Below are positions 7,039 through 42,891 of a stretch of DNA of 64,000 bases, piece by piece. The stretch comes from Hoeflea prorocentri (GTDB lineage: Bacteria > Pseudomonadota > Alphaproteobacteria > Rhizobiales > Rhizobiaceae), in the NCBI RefSeq assembly GCF_027944115.1, contig NZ_JAPJZI010000001.1, positions 1 through 64,000 on the forward strand, in the 5' to 3' direction. The notes beneath the pieces are model-generated. The model made no database searches, was not told where the DNA came from, and was given only the letters and a program-made list of their open reading frames with translations. How positions within the stretch are numbered: position 1 is the first letter of the stretch; every line of letters starts with the position of its first letter. A program made the position numbers and the translations under genes.

Positions 7039-7344
7039 TTAGAGCTCCCCCATGATCTTCTTCTGGAAACCGAATATGTGTCTCGAACCGCCGAACGGTA
7101 CGAGCGTGACATCACGCTCCTGCCCGGGTTCGAAGCGCACAGCGGTGCCGGGTGCGATGTCGAGGCGCATGCCGCGCGCCTTTTCACGCTCGAAGACCAG
7201 CGCTTCATTGGTTTCGTGGAAATGGTAGTGGCTGCCGACCTGAACGGGCCGGTCGCCGCTGTTGGCAACGCGGATGACGATCGTTTCGGCCCCTTCATTG
7301 AAGGTGATGTCGCCTTGTGCGCAAATGATTTCGCCTGGGATCAT
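7039..7344 (-). CDS. ureB: Urease beta subunit UreB
   Basis: A 101-residue structural subunit beginning MIPGEI, with the conserved [11 protein letters not shown] and [10 protein letters not shown] blocks. It packs with UreA and UreC in the urease trimer of heterotrimers. It is separated from ureA by 8 nt and from ureC by 6 nt, the standard three-gene layout (ureA-ureB-ureC), with no fusion as found in Helicobacter. Confidence 0.97.
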
Positions 7345-26640: not shown

Positions 26641-29064
26641 TCAGCCTGTCAGTCCCAGTTTCTGGGCTGTTTTCCACACGCGCCAGTGATCGTGCGGCAT
26701 CTGTGTGTGCGTCAGGCCCTTATGGGCGAAGGCGTCGTTGACCGCGTTGGAAAAGGCCGGTACGCCACCGACATTCGGGCTTTCTCCGACACCCTTGGCA
26801 CCGATCGGATGATGCGGGCTCGGCGTTGTCGTGTGATCGGTCTGCCAGAGCGGTGTTTCAACGGCGGTCGGCAGGTAGAAATCCATCAGGCTGCCGCCCT
26901 GCACATTGCCGATCTCGTCATAGGAGATGTCCTGCCCCATGGCGATGGCCAGCGCCTCGGTCAGGCCGCCGTGGACCTGACCCTCGATGATCATCGGATT
27001 GATGCGGGTACCACAATCGTCGAGCGCATAGAAGCTGCGCACATCGGTCACGCCCGTGTCGACATCGATATCGACGACGCAGATATAGGCACCGAACGGG
27101 TAGGTCATGTTCGGCGGGTCATAATAGGATACGGCCTCCAGACCGGGTTCAAGACCGGGGATTGCCTGATTGTAGGATGCGAAGGCGATTTCCTTCATCG
27201 TCTTGTGTGCTTCCGGATTGCCCTTCACCTGGAAGCGGTCGATGTCCCACTCCAGATCGCCCTCGTGGACCTCGAGCAGATAGGCGGCGATCATCTGCGC
27301 CTTGGCGCGGATCTTGCGGCCGGCCATGGCGGTGGCCGCACCGGCAACGGGCGTCGAGCGTGAGCCGTAGGTGCCGAGCCCGTAGGGCGCGGTGTCGGTG
27401 TCGCCTTCCTCGAGCGTGATGTCCTCGGCGGGTATGCCGATCTCGGTGGCCAGAATCTGCGCGAAGGTGGTGGCATGGCCCTGACCCTGGCTGATCGTGC
27501 CGAGTCTGGCGATCGCCGAGCCGGTCGGATGGATGCGAATCTCGCAGCTGTCGAACATGCCAAGACCGAGGATATCGCAGTTCTTGACGGGGCCTGCGCC
27601 GACGATCTCGGTGAAATGGGCGATGCCGATACCCATCAGTTTGCGGGTCTCGCCGCGTTCGAAGGCTGCGCGGTTTTCCGCTTGTTCGGCTCTCAAGGCC
27701 TGATAGTCAACGGCTTCAAGCGCCTTTTCCATGGCCGTGTGATAGTCACCGCTGTCATATTCCCAGCCCAGTGCGGATGTGTATGGGAACTGATCCTTGT
27801 TGATGAAGTTCTTCATCCGCAGTTCGACCGGGTCCATATCGAGCTTGCGGGCCAGAATGTCGATCATGCGCTCGATCATGTAGGCCGCTTCCGTCACGCG
27901 GAACGAGCAGCGATAGGCAACGCCGCCCGGCGCCTTGTTCGTATAGACGCCATCGACGCCACAATAGGCGACCGGGATGTCATAGGATCCGGTACAGATA
28001 TGGAAAAAGCCGGCCGGGAACTTGGTCGGATCGGCGCAGGCGTCGAAGGCGCCGTGATCTGCCAGCACATGGCAGTGCAGCCCGGTGATCGTTCCGTCCT
28101 TTTTTGCCGCCAGCTTGCCGGTCATGTGATAGTCGCGGGCAAAGGCCGTCGCCGTGAGGTTTTCAATCCTGTCCTCGACCCACTTGATCGGAACGCCGGT
28201 GACGATGGACGCAACCGCCGAGCAGATATAACCGGGATAAACGCCGACCTTGTTGCCGAAGCCGCCGCCGATATCGGGGGAGACGACGCGGATATTGTGC
28301 TCGGGGATATTGGTGATGAGCGAGGCGACGGTGCGCACGGCATGCGGCGCCTGGAATGTACCCCACAGTGTCAGCTTGCCGTTGATTTTGTCCATGGAGG
28401 CGACGCATCCGCAGGTTTCAAGCGGGCAAGGATGAACACGCTGATAGGTGATCATCTCCTCGACCGTTACCTCGGCATCTTGGAGCGCCTTGTTCGTGCC
28501 GGCCTCATCGCCCTCTTCCCAATGGAAGATGTGATTGTGATGCTTGCGCGGCCCGTGCGCGCCTTCCATCTTGTCCTTGATGTCTTCGCGAAGCAGGGGA
28601 GCGTCGTCATCCATCGCCTTGAAAGCGTCGACGAGTGCGGGCAGTTCCTCATATTCAACTTCGACAAGTTCGGTGGCGTCGGCGGCGATGTAACGGTCCT
28701 CAGCCACCACGAAGGCCACTTCCTGGTTCTGGAAAAGTACTTTCTCATCGGCAAGCACCGCCTGAACGTCGCCGGCCAGGGTCGGCATGTAGTGCAGGTT
28801 CAGCGGCTTGAGATCCTCGGCGGTCAGAACCGCGACCACGCCGGGCATTGCAAGCGCTGCATCCTTGTTGATGGAATTGATCCGCGCGTGACCATAGGGG
28901 GAGCGGACAAAGTCGCCGAACAGCATACCGGGCAGCTTTATATCGTCTACATAGTTGCCCTTGCCCTGGGTGAAGCGTGCGTCCTCGACGCGCTTGCGCG
29001 ACGAGCCGAGGCCCTGGAGCTTTTCAACGCGTTCGGCATCGGTGGGGGGTGTCTGGACGTTCAT
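26641..29064 (-). CDS. coxL: Aerobic CO dehydrogenase large subunit CoxL, form I
   Basis: An 807-residue molybdenum-copper subunit oxidising CO with water to CO2, two protons and two electrons. The active-site loop reads VAYRCSFR with Cys386, the form I signature; form II homologues have AYRGAGR and no such Cys. The Mo-ligand region GAKGVGESP is intact, as are QGQGHATT and [12 protein letters not shown]. The sequence is very close to what I recall of Oligotropha carboxidovorans CoxL. The real start is ATG 29064 (overlapping coxS as ATGA); the open frame to 29250 is spurious. Confidence 0.97.
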
Positions 29065-29552
29065 TCTGCTGCCTCCTTCACCGAAAGTTCCTCGGCGGCG
29101 GCCTGGATGGCCTTGACGATGTTCTGATAGCCGGTGCAGCGGCACAGATTGCCGCTGATGCCGAAGCGGATTTCCTCTTCGCTCGGGTTGGGGTTTTCCT
29201 GCAGCAGACGCCAGGCGCGGGTAATCATGCCCGGAGTGCAAAAGCCGCATTGCAGCCCGTGATGCTGTCGGAATGCCTCCTGAACGGCATGCAGCGTTCC
29301 GTCCGGCTGGGCGATGCCTTCGATCGTGGTCACGTCAGCACCTTCGGCCTGGCCGACAAAAACAGTGCAGGATTTGACGGACTTGCCATCGATATCGACG
29401 GTACAGGCACCGCAATGGCTGGTTTCACAGCCGATATGCGGGCCGGTGAGGTTGAGTTCTTCCCGCAGGAAATGGATGAGCAGGGTGCGTGGCTCGGCCA
29501 GGGCTTCTACGGCCTTGCCGTTCACCGTCATCTTGACATGGGTCTTTGACAT
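29061..29552 (-). CDS. coxS: CO dehydrogenase small iron-sulphur subunit CoxS
   Basis: A 163-residue protein carrying two [2Fe-2S] clusters: Cys42, 47, 50 and 62 (plant ferredoxin type) and Cys102, 105, 137 and 139 (the proximal helical cluster). This is the cysteine spacing known for CoxS. It passes electrons from the Mo-Cu site of CoxL to the FAD of CoxM. It lies 27 nt after coxM and overlaps coxL by 4 nt. Confidence 0.97.
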
Positions 29553-29579: not shown

Positions 29580-30443
29580 TCAGGCAGCGCGTTCATGGGC
29601 GGTTTCGATGGCGCGCTGCACCATGATGCCGGCAACATGTGTGCGGTACTCGGCCGGTCCGCGTCCGTCGGACGCCGGGTCTGTGATCGAGCGGGCCGCA
29701 TCGACGGCCGCAGCGATCGCAGCGGTATCGAGGCCCGTGCCGACAAGCGCCTGGGCTGCTGCCTCGGCCCAAAGCGGTGTATCAGCCACATTGGTCAGGG
29801 CGATGGATGCGCTGGTGCACTGGCCACCGGAGACCGTCAGGATGACACCCGCCGCAGCCGTCGCATAGTCGCCGATCTTGCGTTTTTGCTTCTGATAGCT
29901 GTAGCCGTGGCCGGCGGCCGGCGTCGGTATGTGGACCGATGTCAGGATCTCGGCCTCGTCACGCGCGGTAAAATAGGCCGCTTCATAAAATTCCCGTGCC
30001 TTGACGGTGCGGCTTCCGGTCTTGCCCCGCAGGACATATTCCGCATCAAGCAATTGCATGATGGCCGGCATGTCGTTGCCGGGATCGCCATTGGCGACAT
30101 TTCCGCCGATTGTGCCGACATTGCGGATTTGGGGATCGGCAATCTGGTAGGATGTTTCGCGCAGGATGGGGCAGGCGGCTGCAAGCTCATCCGATGCTAT
30201 GAGGTCCGCCTGGGTAACCGCCGCGCCGATCTCGATGCGGTCGCCAGTGACCCTAATGCCGGAGAGTTCGTCGATGCCCTGAATGTCGATCAGGTGTTCG
30301 GGTGTCGCCATGCGCAGCTTCATCATGGGGATGAGGCTGTGTCCGCCGGCAAGTATCAGCGCATCGCCGCCATGATCGGATAACAGTCCGACGGCCTCGT
30401 CGATACTGCTTGGCCGGTGGTAGTCAAATGAACCGGGTATCAT
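29580..30443 (-). CDS. coxM: CO dehydrogenase FAD-binding medium subunit CoxM
   Basis: A 287-residue FAD subunit with both flavin-binding motifs at the expected positions, AGGHS (32-36) and TIGGN (111-115). It passes electrons on to the respiratory chain. The start is ATG 30443, preceded by GGGAGGAA; the longer open frame to 30542 covers the promoter and its repeats. It is the first structural gene of the cluster, order M-S-L. Confidence 0.96.
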   Translation of the reverse strand: MIPGSFDYHRPSSIDEAVGLLSDHGGDALILAGGHSLIPMMKLRMATPEHLIDIQGIDELSGIRVTGDRIEIGAAVTQADLIASDELAAACPILRETSYQIADPQIRNVGTIGGNVANGDPGNDMPAIMQLLDAEYVLRGKTGSRTVKAREFYEAAYFTARDEAEILTSVHIPTPAAGHGYSYQKQKRKIGDYATAAAGVILTVSGGQCTSASIALTNVADTPLWAEAAAQALVGTGLDTAAIAAAVDAARSITDPASDGRGPAEYRTHVAGIMVQRAIETAHERAA

Positions 30444-30514
30444 TGCGTTCCTCCCAAACCTCACAATGGTATGGGACCAGTCTGAACACGCGATGCCTAT
30501 GGAAGAAACGGCGC

Positions 30515-30564
30515 TGCACCAACGAACGGCATTTTGCACCAACGGTCCTTATTCTGCACGAATG
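30515..30564 (-). promoter_or_regulatory. Triplet direct repeat upstream of coxM (candidate LytTR-regulator site)
   Basis: TGCACCAACG occurs at 30515-30524 and again at 30535-30544, and the related TGCACGAATG at 30555-30564: three copies with an exact 20-bp period. They lie 72-121 nt upstream of the coxM start and directly after the coxC stop. LytTR domains bind spaced direct repeats, and the CO regulators of the RcoM group use repeats of this kind, so the neighbouring MHYT-LytTR protein is the natural candidate binder. Confidence 0.65.
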
Positions 30565-30574
30565 GCATACGGTG

Positions 30575-31741
30575 CTAGACGCCGAGCCGGTTTCGCAGAT
30601 CCTTGGCGCGGGAGCGGCTGACGGGAACCTCCAGCTCCGCTGCCTCGCCGACATAACAGAACAGTTGGTCGCCGACTTTCTTCAAACCGTTGATGTGGGC
30701 CGGGTTCACAAGGTAGCGGCGGTGTGTCTTCAAGAACCGGCCGGCAAGTTGGCTCTTTTCCACTTTCGACAGGGACCAAGGGCAGAACAGCGCATCCTCG
30801 TCGGTGCGGATCTTGGTGTAGTGGCCGTCGCTCTCGATTGCCAGAATGCGGTCCGTGTTCATGAAACGGACTGTCCCCTCCTTTTCGTAGGGAATGCTGT
30901 TCTTGGCCGGGGAGATCATCTGGCCGGCACGGCTGAGCGGCACGCTCTGTGCCCGGGCCGGCTGGCGTTTTTCCGTCTCCGTCTGTACAGGCTCCGCGTT
31001 GTCCGGTCCCTCCGCGGTGGCAGTCTTTCCGGCTTCCTCCATGGGAACGGCCAGCAGCAGAAACAACCCGCAAATGACAAAGGCGCTCAGGCTCACCGAC
31101 ATGGCTAGAACCTGCGGATCGAGGGCCGGGATCGGTTCGGCGACAAATTCGGCAGCCTGGGCAAAAGACGTACCCAGCATAGCCGCGTAATGCATTGCCG
31201 AGATCGACAATCCAAGGACAACCGCACCGATGGCGGTGCGCAGGAGCGAGCGTGTTGAATAGGCAAGCCACATGGCAAGCGTCGATGCGGCAATTGCGAT
31301 CACCACGGACGAAATGATGCCGCGTGCGCTGTAGGTCACGATGCAATTGGCCGAGATGGCGGCCATGCCGGTATAATGCATGGACGCGATGCCAATGCCG
31401 GTCAGGCTGCCCGAGGTCAGGATACGCAGGTTGGTCCGCTCACCGAAATGCAAAAGCAGCAATCCGCAGCCTGTGATCAGGATTGCGATCAGCGCGGAAC
31501 TGAGTGTGAGCAGGGGGTCGTAGGTGACAAAAAACGGCAGGGTTACGGCCAGCATGCCAATGAAATGCATAGACCAGATGCCGCCGCCCAGAGCAATCGC
31601 GGCTTGAGCAATCCGCAGCTTGCGGCGCGGCACCGGAAGATTACGAAGACCGTCGGTCAGTCTCAGGCAGGTAAATGCCGCCATGATGGCGACCAGTATC
31701 GACGCACCGACAAGGAACGGCGAGTAGTGCACCTCCACCAT
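30575..31741 (-). CDS. coxC: CoxC-like regulator: MHYT sensor with LytTR DNA-binding domain
   Basis: A 388-residue membrane-bound one-component regulator. Seven hydrophobic segments (to about residue 235) include three MHYT-type motifs (WSMHFIGM, ASMHYTGM, SAMHYAAM) whose Met/His residues are thought to bind a metal and sense a diatomic gas. After a linker, residues ~285-388 form a LytTR DNA-binding domain (RILAIESDGHYTKIRTDEDA, FLKTHRRYLVNPAHINGLKK). CoxC and CoxH of Oligotropha share this design. It lies directly upstream of coxM and probably activates it in response to CO or oxygen. Confidence 0.88.
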   Translation of the reverse strand: MVEVHYSPFLVGASILVAIMAAFTCLRLTDGLRNLPVPRRKLRIAQAAIALGGGIWSMHFIGMLAVTLPFFVTYDPLLTLSSALIAILITGCGLLLLHFGERTNLRILTSGSLTGIGIASMHYTGMAAISANCIVTYSARGIISSVVIAIAASTLAMWLAYSTRSLLRTAIGAVVLGLSISAMHYAAMLGTSFAQAAEFVAEPIPALDPQVLAMSVSLSAFVICGLFLLLAVPMEEAGKTATAEGPDNAEPVQTETEKRQPARAQSVPLSRAGQMISPAKNSIPYEKEGTVRFMNTDRILAIESDGHYTKIRTDEDALFCPWSLSKVEKSQLAGRFLKTHRRYLVNPAHINGLKKVGDQLFCYVGEAAELEVPVSRSRAKDLRNRLGV

Positions 31742-40438: not shown

Positions 40439-40662
40439 TTTTCGGAGTGTCGTGCGGCAAGCGACAGGACGCAAGTCGCACATCTCTATTTCAGCCCTCA
40501 TTTGGGGGTGAAGCGAGATTTGTTCACACAATAAACTTCAACGCGAAACGTCACGAGCGCCTTTAGCGGAAGGCGGAAATCACGAAACGCCAAGATCTGG
40601 GCGGGTGGGGAACCTGCCATTTGGCGCGCGCGGTGCCCGGCACCGCAACGAGGGGATGGGGA
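40439..40662. promoter_or_regulatory. Divergent promoter region between the regulator and the HAF-repeat protein
   Basis: About 220 bp between divergent starts. It should carry both promoters. I found no strong dyad or consensus promoter; the left part may instead be coding if the regulator starts at 40531. Confidence 0.4.
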
Positions 40663-42891
40663 ATGCATTTCAAATTGTTGAAGCTATTAACTGCAAGTAC
40701 GGCTCTGATTGGCGCAGCGGCGATCGCTGCCGGCGCGCAAGACGCCGGGTCTTTCGATGTTTACGGAACCGGTTCGCCGAAGATGATCGCCTGGGATGTG
40801 TCAGGCGACGGCAATATTATCGTCGGCGAATTCGGTGCGCAGGCGCTTCGCCTGACCCTCGGCGGCACCCCGACCCAGATTGGCGGACAGGATGCGCTGG
40901 CCATATCAGGCGACGGCTCGACCATCGTCGGTTATGAACTGGATAGTCTCGACGCATTCGCCGTGCGCTGGGCCGGCGACGGCACGGGCAGGACACGGCT
41001 CGCAACCCAGATATCCGGCACCAGCACCACGGTTGAGCGTTCCTGGGCGCATGGCGCGTCCTGGGACGGCAGTGTGATTGTCGGCCGCGCCGAGTATTCG
41101 GGCGTTATTGATGCGGCACGATGGACATCCGGCGGGCTGGAGATCCTCAGCGGACTTCCCACCGGCTCGGCCTCGATTGCCAATGATGTATCCGGTGACG
41201 GTCAGACCATCGTTGGCAGCTGGTTCATGAACCATCCGGGTATTGACGGTATGGCGTTCAGCTGGACGCAAACCGGCGGCCTTGTCGATCTTGGCAGGCT
41301 CAATGGCGGCGCTTATTCGGAGGCGACGGCCATCTCGCGCGACGGACGGGTGATTGTCGGCAATGCATTCGACCCGACGCTGGCTCAGCGCCAGGCCGTG
41401 CGATGGGTTGACGGCGGAACAATCGAGAGCCTTGGCGGTATCCTCAGCGCTGGAACCGGAAATTCAGAGGCCTACGGCGCATCCGATGATGGCAGTGTCA
41501 TCGTCGGCAACGCCATGGTTTTCAGAGGCGGCATCAGAACCCGTGCCATGCGCTATGAGAACGGCACCATGCAGACCGTCGAGGACTGGCTTCGCGATAA
41601 TGGTGTCACGATCACCGAAGATGTGACCAATACCGCCTACAGCACCAATTCGGACGGAAGCGTTGTTGTCGGCAAGACCGGTGACGAACGCATGTTTGTC
41701 GCACGCGTGCCGTCGAGCGGTAGCGGAGGAAGTGGCGGAAGCGGTGGAAGTGGCGGTACCGGTGGCGGTGATGGTGGCAGTGGAAGCGGCGGCAGCGACG
41801 GCGGAAGTGGAAGCGGCGGTAGTGGTGGAAGCGACAGCGGCGGTAGTGGTGGAAGCGACGGCGGTGGAAGCGGTGGCGGCAGTGGAAGCGGTGGCGGCAG
41901 TGGAAGTGGCGGTAGCGGTGGAAGTGGTGGCAGTGGCGGAAGTGGAGGCAGTGGCGGTCTGATCGTCATCGACGATCTTGCGCAATCCCTGTCCGGTACA
42001 AGCATGGCCAACACCGCAACGCTCAGCGGGCTCAATATTCTTCTCAACGGTGCCGGCAGCCGGCCGCTGGACCGCCGTGCAAATCTCGACGGATCCATCC
42101 TTTGGGCAACAGGCGATCTCGGCCGTGCCGATCACGGCGCCCAGGATGGCTGGTTTGGCCTGGGCGAGGTGGGAATTGGTCGCGACTTTGATTCGTTTCA
42201 GTTCAACGCGGCTGTGGGCGCCTCCCATCAGGAGCAAAATACGGCACTCGGCGGTGAGACGGATATCGATACAGTCTATGCGAAACTCGAGGCACTGGCT
42301 CTGCTCCACTCTTCGGGCAAAGGCGGTATCTGGGCCGTGCTGACCGGCACAGGCGCCTATGGAAAAGCAGACATTGACCGCAACTATCTGGCAAATGGCG
42401 GTGCAACCGTCCGCTCATCGGGATCGACCAATCTTACCGGATATGGTGTGCGTGGCCGGCTTCAGTGGGAACATCTCGTTCCCCATGTCTCACCCTATAC
42501 GGAACTGAGCTGGTCGCGATCCTGCATGGATGGCTACAGCGAAAGCGGCGGCCCGTTTCCCGCCTCATTTAATCGACAATGTGCATCCGAAACGCTTGCG
42601 CGCTACGGCGCAGACGCGACTGTGCCGGTCACCGAGCGCTTCCGAGTGATCGGTACGCTGGAGGGCGTCCACCGGGTCGCCGGCTCGGCGGACGCCTCCA
42701 GCGGTGTGGTTGCCGGTATCGGCAATTTCAACTTCAACGCACCGGACCAGAAGGACAATTGGGCGCGTGCCGGTGTCGGGTTTGAAACGGATGTCGGTGA
42801 AGCCTCAATACTGAGCGTCATGGTCAACGGCACGACACAAAGCAGCGCGCCGAGCGCCTGGATGTCGGCTTCCTGGCGCAAAAAATTCTGA
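40663..42891 (+). CDS. Autotransporter-type outer-membrane protein with HAF repeats and Gly/Ser linker
   Basis: A 742-residue secreted protein. A signal peptide (MHFKLLKLLTASTALIGAAA) is followed by seven HAF-type repeats of the form S-x-DG-x-x-IVG (AWDVSGDGNIIVGEF, ALAISGDGSTIVGYE, GASWDGSVIVGRA, ANDVSGDGQTIVGSW and others). Then come ~82 residues almost only Gly, Ser and Asp (about 351-432) and a C-terminal beta-barrel domain ending in ASWRKKF with the terminal Phe typical of outer-membrane barrels. GAGGGG precedes ATG 40663. The passenger is probably displayed on the cell surface; no binding partner is known. Confidence 0.85.
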   Translation: MHFKLLKLLTASTALIGAAAIAAGAQDAGSFDVYGTGSPKMIAWDVSGDGNIIVGEFGAQALRLTLGGTPTQIGGQDALAISGDGSTIVGYELDSLDAFAVRWAGDGTGRTRLATQISGTSTTVERSWAHGASWDGSVIVGRAEYSGVIDAARWTSGGLEILSGLPTGSASIANDVSGDGQTIVGSWFMNHPGIDGMAFSWTQTGGLVDLGRLNGGAYSEATAISRDGRVIVGNAFDPTLAQRQAVRWVDGGTIESLGGILSAGTGNSEAYGASDDGSVIVGNAMVFRGGIRTRAMRYENGTMQTVEDWLRDNGVTITEDVTNTAYSTNSDGSVVVGKTGDERMFVARVPSSGSGGSGGSGGSGGTGGGDGGSGSGGSDGGSGSGGSGGSDSGGSGGSDGGGSGGGSGSGGGSGSGGSGGSGGSGGSGGSGGLIVIDDLAQSLSGTSMANTATLSGLNILLNGAGSRPLDRRANLDGSILWATGDLGRADHGAQDGWFGLGEVGIGRDFDSFQFNAAVGASHQEQNTALGGETDIDTVYAKLEALALLHSSGKGGIWAVLTGTGAYGKADIDRNYLANGGATVRSSGSTNLTGYGVRGRLQWEHLVPHVSPYTELSWSRSCMDGYSESGGPFPASFNRQCASETLARYGADATVPVTERFRVIGTLEGVHRVAGSADASSGVVAGIGNFNFNAPDQKDNWARAGVGFETDVGEASILSVMVNGTTQSSAPSAWMSASWRKKF
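41716..41958 (+). repeat. Gly/Ser-coding imperfect tandem repeat
   Basis: About 240 bp of GGN-AGY codon repeats (GGTGGAAGTGGCGG-like units) coding for (GGS)n with a few Asp and one Thr. It lies inside the autotransporter gene. Such tracts are prone to slippage, so linker length may vary between strains. Confidence 0.9.

Follow-up and report, generated by a model that had tools for sequence, protein, structure and literature searches.

Three short direct repeats lie between coxC and coxM in a 64,000-nt stretch of the Hoeflea prorocentri genome (the window), and they raise the question of which protein binds there and what that binding does to the coxMSL genes that follow. The first-pass annotation of this DNA described three direct repeats with an exact 20-bp period, placed just after the stop of the regulator gene and 72-121 nt before coxM. 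The sequence bears this out, with start-to-start distances of 20 and 20 bp, the coxC TAG at 30577-30575 and the coxM ATG at 30443-30441 (Table 1). CoxC is encoded directly upstream of coxMSL and has Pfam matches to MHYT (5e-42) and LytTR (2e-15). Two LytTR genes were matched in the genome, coxC and one encoding LytTR alone in Pfam; the product of the latter (G000:C1:4267520-4267750; L002 1474-2250) is a protein of 258 aa with a hydrophobic N-terminal half. Elsewhere in the window (40621-42891, +) there is a 756-aa ORF in which a long Gly-Ser repeat linker joins an N-terminal repeat region to a C-terminal part that, from its sequence, looks like an autotransporter barrel.

Table 1. Positions of the repeats, genes and predicted promoter elements in the window, and of the triplets at rhizobial EAL loci. 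Boxes 1 to 3 follow their order on the coding (-) strand (30562-30555, 30542-30535, 30522-30515).
Feature	Sequence	Position	Strand	Remark
Repeats of the first-pass annotation	TGCACCAACG	30515-30524 and 30535-30544		sequence check
Repeat of the first-pass annotation	TGCACGAATG	30555-30564		sequence check
Box 1	TTCGTGCA	30555..30562	-	most conserved box; model score 16.3 with flanks 30554-30568
Box 2	TTGGTGCA	30535..30542	-	score 10.3; flank GGACCG deviates from consensus CGC flank
Box 3	TTGGTGCA	30515..30522	-	score 3.6, weak against the general model
-35-like hexamer, weak	TTTCTT	30503..30508	-	+34 from box 2; position chosen by comparison with the +35 TTG peak
-10-like hexamer	CAGACT	30479..30484	-	+58 from box 2
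coxC		30575..31741	-	388 aa, MHYT and C-terminal LytTR; likely binding protein
coxM		29580..30443	-	first gene of coxMSL; promoter target
coxS		29061..29552	-	
coxL		26641..29067	-	tentative start codon; listed ORF begins further upstream
EAL-locus triplets		L131 5743-5790; L236 4742-4789; L237 4713-4760; L238 4660-4707; L239 4692-4739		spacing 21, 19; directly after the regulator

The 10-mer alone is not rare, with 11 matches in the window at up to one mismatch vs 22 expected, and the unusual feature is the phased triplet only, not the single 10-mer. TTNGTG repeated three times with a period of 20 and at most two mismatches was matched once in the window, compared with a mean of 0.05 over 100 dinucleotide shuffles, five of which contained at least one match. 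At up to one mismatch the triplet is unique in the 5.04 Mb genome (reversed control, 0 matches), and the two-box pattern gave seven matches genome-wide, two of them at the triplet site, with two for the reversed control. What is conserved is a unit of about 13 bp on the - strand, cGC[A/c]NTTCGTGCA, longer than the 10-mer originally noted. In the window the CGC flanks of boxes 2 and 3 are poor, and the TTGGTG of box 3 is invariant in an alignment of the eight genus members.

Relatives of CoxC were sought, in overlapping sets, in the order (297 genomes, 47 with a match), in 61 relatives (20 with a match), in the class (385 genomes, 12 at E <= 1e-50), the genus (8 genomes, 8), named genome contigs (80 loci kept, mostly other kinds of MHYT protein) and plasmids (21 records). 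The comparison used 66 distinct coxC-coxM gaps (60-600 in length, with CoxC at more than 100 bits and a query end beyond 360, each gap sequence counted once); loci were left out if CoxC was truncated or if the stretch retrieved did not include coxM. A strict scan for TTNNNGC three times at a spacing of 18-22 was dropped as a detector; it missed most relatives because box 3 is degenerate in many of them, and was therefore replaced by a motif-free lag test (10-letter windows in which 8 or more positions agree at the lag in question) and a PWM. The lag test bore directly on whether the 20-bp period extends to the coxC-coxM gaps of related genomes, and across the 66 gaps it peaked only at lags 20 (37) and 21 (27), the other lags from 6 to 60 giving 11 at most. 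The degenerate third box could be followed as [TC]TNGTG: counted from box 2, the offsets +19 to +21 hold 20 occurrences in 64 sequences, with a mean of 0.03 per offset elsewhere.

The PWM found box pairs at p <= 0.01 in 65 of the 66 gaps, and the best pair was spaced 20 or 21 bp in 65 of the 66, although these in-sample scores lean towards sites because the PWM was trained on the same gaps. Fairer tests were provided by leave-one-out, by holding out the genus, by three loci outside training (L214, L217 and L218, all bearing strong sites) and by the PcoxB promoter described below. With leave-one-out, none of 200 shuffles reached the score in 64 of 66 gaps, the other two being L021 (1/200) and L026 of genome G033 (66/200). 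When the genus was held out of training, 0/1000 shuffles reached the score in each of its eight members, window included. One site listing was restricted to sites less than 160 bp from coxM, and L021, L026 and L116 were left out of it. G033 (L173 / L026) is the sole exception among the 66, having CoxC upstream of coxM with no recognisable boxes in a 513-bp AT-rich gap, where a search for other repeats at lags 17-23 returned only T-rich low-complexity or isolated matches. A single good box was found in G256 (17.8 and 0.9) and in G210 (20.0 and 0.8). The first-pass annotation had staked its proposal on conservation in close relatives, and boxes were found in 8/8 genus genomes.

The presence of the boxes was then compared with the presence of a LytTR gene. 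No site was found before coxM in 5/5 loci of genomes without a LytTR match (G041, G081, G274, G634 and G667), a control of five loci only, in which G667 is 83% complete and offers 298 bp of upstream DNA. Where CoxC is encoded on another contig or about 12 kb away, a strong site still lies before coxM (3/3; G043, G167, G595), and in G256, with CoxC about 9 kb away, the good box has a weak partner. Genomes G042 and G147 have no CoxC match at E <= 1e-30, but in both there is a LytTR gene beside coxM and the site is present; the gene in G147 encodes a divergent MHYT-LytTR protein and that in G042 is cut by the contig end. G514 has two coxM copies, the one adjoining CoxC with a site and the second without. 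A Fisher test of 75 loci with a site and two without, against 0/5, gave p 8e-7, for hand-tallied counts that ignore shared ancestry and take as sites the two weak ones (G256, G210) and a G271 site 511 bp from coxM. In 53 loci the 1200 bp upstream of coxC contained no operator (best pair 9.1), which leaves autoregulation from a site of this type unsupported. Afipia PcoxB falls beyond this range, as it precedes coxB and is some 1.8 kb upstream of coxC.

The distance from the boxes to the promoter was examined on 69 anchored sites, namely 65 of the 66 gaps (L026 out) with L174, L180, L181 and L182, of which 64 were kept after removal of those more than 80% alike. Measured from box 2, 21 of 64 sequences have [CT]ANNNT at +59, against an average of 1.45 for a single offset, and the offsets from +57 to +61 together hold 43 occurrences, against an average of 7.7 for five offsets; the stricter TANNNT was present at +57 to +61 in 18 of 64 compared with 0 to 3 in the thirteen other five-offset windows listed. 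The invariance of letters in the aligned -10-like elements is circular because they were selected by their A and T, but the offset peak is not. There is also a TTG peak at +35, in 12 of 64 sequences (mean 1.75). On this register coxM transcription is predicted to start near 30472, and the implied layout is boxes 1, 2 and 3 starting at about -91, -71 and -51, followed by the -35, an 18-bp spacer and the -10. The predicted -35 begins 6 nt downstream of box 3 and is not overlapped by the operator, such an overlap being a published feature of PcoxB. No published coxM transcription start was found in a literature search.

An operator of this kind has been described for Afipia carboxidovorans, in which CoxC, an MHYT-LytTR protein, binds three direct repeats (TTNNNGCN) at PcoxB (PMC11347149, NAR 2024). 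There CoxC represses PcoxB in E. coli and is released from DNA by CO with copper, the operator is placed over the -35, and CoxC is presented as the first MHYT protein for which a role as a transcription regulator has been shown (PMC11347149). The first-pass annotation was wrong to expect that a defined MHYT-LytTR target would be new, because PMC11347149 already shows a CoxC operator, published in 2024. No other papers on CoxC operators were found in a search of freely available literature. Both operators belong to the MHYT-LytTR regulator of a cox cluster and consist of three TTNNNGCN-type direct repeats about two helical turns apart, a pattern matched by all three boxes of the window (TTCGTGCA, TTGGTGCA, TTGGTGCA), whereas the PcoxB operator sits before coxB and that of the window between coxC and coxM. 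The two CoxC proteins are 32% identical.

When the PWM was run on 13 kb of Afipia cox DNA, the PcoxB triplet, which is outside training, came top (TT at L123 4183, 4204 and 4224; score 25.3), and 0/200 shuffles of the PcoxB region reached this score (largest 2.5). The second-best triplet, which is in training, lies in the Afipia coxC-coxM gap (L123 7223, 7243, 7263; 7223-7270; score 23.4), and the next distinct triplet in the 13 kb scores 7.2. The accessible text of PMC11347149 contains no description of an operator between Afipia coxC and coxM. In the PWM register PcoxB has TTGATG at +35 and TATCGT at +59, that is, the same boxes, -35 at +35 and -10 at +59 as in the coxM register of the relatives; in the Afipia coxC-coxM gap, position +59 shows no clear [CT]ANNNT. 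The published PcoxB repeats, as taken from the mutagenic primers (TTACCGCC, TTTGGGCA and TTTGCGGC), score -19.7, -1.3 and -15.4; the second alone falls on a PWM-register box (box 3). However, the first published mutant also alters a conserved G in the flank of PWM-register box 2 and the second alters box 3, so the binding results in the accessible text fit the PWM and published registers equally. Judging from the comparison, the boxes of PcoxB have probably been assigned out of register in the published work. As PcoxB in the PWM register is also without a -35 overlap, it is the overlap as a feature that is questioned, and not membership among CoxC operators.

Triplets also occur on plasmids of Sinorhizobium meliloti and Rhizobium leguminosarum, at five loci where an EAL-like gene, not coxM, is downstream of the MHYT-LytTR relative. 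The triplet is the top-scoring one of each of these loci (15.3 to 37.5; next best <= 4.4). The EAL matches are partial, and of the three proteins scanned two fall below the Pfam cut-off of 31.3 (30.0 and 29.5 bits) and one above (44.7). No coxM of either species was found among 49 plasmid records with a match, a search of plasmids only. From these sequences, the same regulator-operator pair may serve another target in the rhizobial plasmid loci.

Taken with the published work, there is a high probability that this segment serves the coxMSL promoter as its CoxC operator and that CoxC couples coxMSL transcription to CO. The earlier suggestion that CoxC binds here is strongly supported by comparison, as the boxes extend across the class, track the LytTR gene and yield a model that finds the experimentally shown PcoxB operator, and direct binding of CoxC to the triplet is very likely on this evidence. 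A membrane-anchored CoxC would bind, through its LytTR domain, the three boxes, which are spaced by two helical turns and lie shortly before a weak -35, and its MHYT domain would sense CO and so link CO to coxMSL transcription. Direct binding, the need for an intact repeat set and copper-dependent CO sensing would be carried over by analogy from the Afipia orthologue (PMC11347149). As for the sign of regulation, we infer that CO-relieved repression is somewhat more likely than CO-dependent activation, the former being favoured because the sole orthologue experiment, in E. coli, shows it, and the latter because of the geometry and the poor -35. The cooperative activation by the triplet that was first proposed is unproven, the tested CoxC being a repressor relieved by CO and the geometry being activator-like.

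The alternative that survives best keeps the same operator with the opposite sign: CoxC would be a CO-dependent activator or a dual regulator, and the triplet would recruit RNA polymerase, as RcoM does, to a promoter whose -35 is not a good one. It is a possible reading, to which we give rather less than an even chance. The boxes are upstream of the -35 and at a fixed distance from the -10, a geometry resembling that of an activator. The -35 and -10 of the window are also poor and a consensus scan for a sigma-70 promoter at the triplet/coxM segment found none, but promoters of alphaproteobacteria often match the E. coli consensus poorly. RcoM sites are TTCNNGCA at about 20-21 bp and RcoM1 is an activator binding upstream of the -35 (PMC11347149); activation by RcoM is also described in PMC9670170. 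A literature search for RcoM footprint papers yielded nothing useful. Like that of the window, the RcoM operator of Paraburkholderia xenovorans consists of three LytTR boxes that precede cox genes as direct repeats spaced by about 20-21 bp, but the sensor of RcoM, a described activator, is haem-PAS and that of CoxC is MHYT, and although the window triplet has the RcoM layout in its spacing and its position upstream of the -35, boxes 2 and 3 do not fit TTCNNGCA. Canonical LytTR operators, pairs of 9-bp direct repeats separated by 10-13 bp (cited in PMC11347149), share the direct repeats and two-turn phasing, whereas the window has three boxes.

A near-identical layout was found at RcoM-like cox promoters of two betaproteobacteria, Paraburkholderia aromaticivorans and Caballeronia sp. 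SBC1, whose LytTR protein has a weak PAS_4 match (E 0.16; the Caballeronia relative is 79.5% identical over 85%). Each locus has two triplets, and after them, counting from box 2, come TTGAA (+34 to +35) and GAAAT (about +56 to +57). The better triplet is the top match of each locus (16.8 and 20.3, low for the CoxC model), but the second triplets (12.7 and 11.8) stay at the level of the best chance match on the minus strand (13.5 and 10.6). This comparison is suggestive only, because it covers four promoters in two organisms and the second triplets are at chance level. Against an activating CoxC, the Afipia orthologue behaves as a repressor that leaves DNA on CO (PMC11347149), at a promoter that has the same layout in the PWM register.

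A broader reading joins several of these points, namely that CoxC and RcoM share one promoter module of three LytTR boxes at a fixed distance from the -10, that CoxC is an activator or dual at coxM, that PcoxB is repressed other than by covering the -35, that the published PcoxB register is off and that rhizobia carry the same pair before an EAL-domain gene. We regard this combination as unlikely to hold in full; if true, it would mean that two CO sensors with unrelated chemistries, the membrane one copper-MHYT and the cytoplasmic one haem-PAS, use one module.

It is very improbable that the triplet is bound by a different LytTR protein, such as an RcoM or the other LytTR protein encoded in the genome. 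RcoM sites, with their sequence and spacing, do resemble the boxes (PMC11347149), and a second LytTR gene exists, but no PAS-LytTR (RcoM) protein was found in the genome, the non-CoxC member of the two matched LytTR genes is without PAS in Pfam, and CoxC adjoins the site in most loci examined. Scarcely credible is the notion that the repeats are a chance occurrence or an RNA or terminator signal at the coxC end, for although two weak terminator-like stems overlap box 3 (shuffle mean 0.3) and a box overlaps the coxC end in some relatives, e.g. L127, the repeats are direct and not inverted, their period, sequence and distance to the -10-like element are conserved over distant genomes, and sites are absent where LytTR is absent.

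The comparisons thus argue that the window site, as a CoxC operator, is a real and conserved example of the kind first shown in 2024. What the comparison adds is the refined box, the fixed promoter register and the conserved site before coxM. Re-mapping of the PcoxB operator register as published is suggested, and the sharper box cGC[A/c]NTTCGTGCA, together with the promoter register, would reduce the question of repressor or activator to one reporter experiment. The presence of the operator before coxM in dozens of alphaproteobacterial loci suggests that this is where CoxC usually acts.
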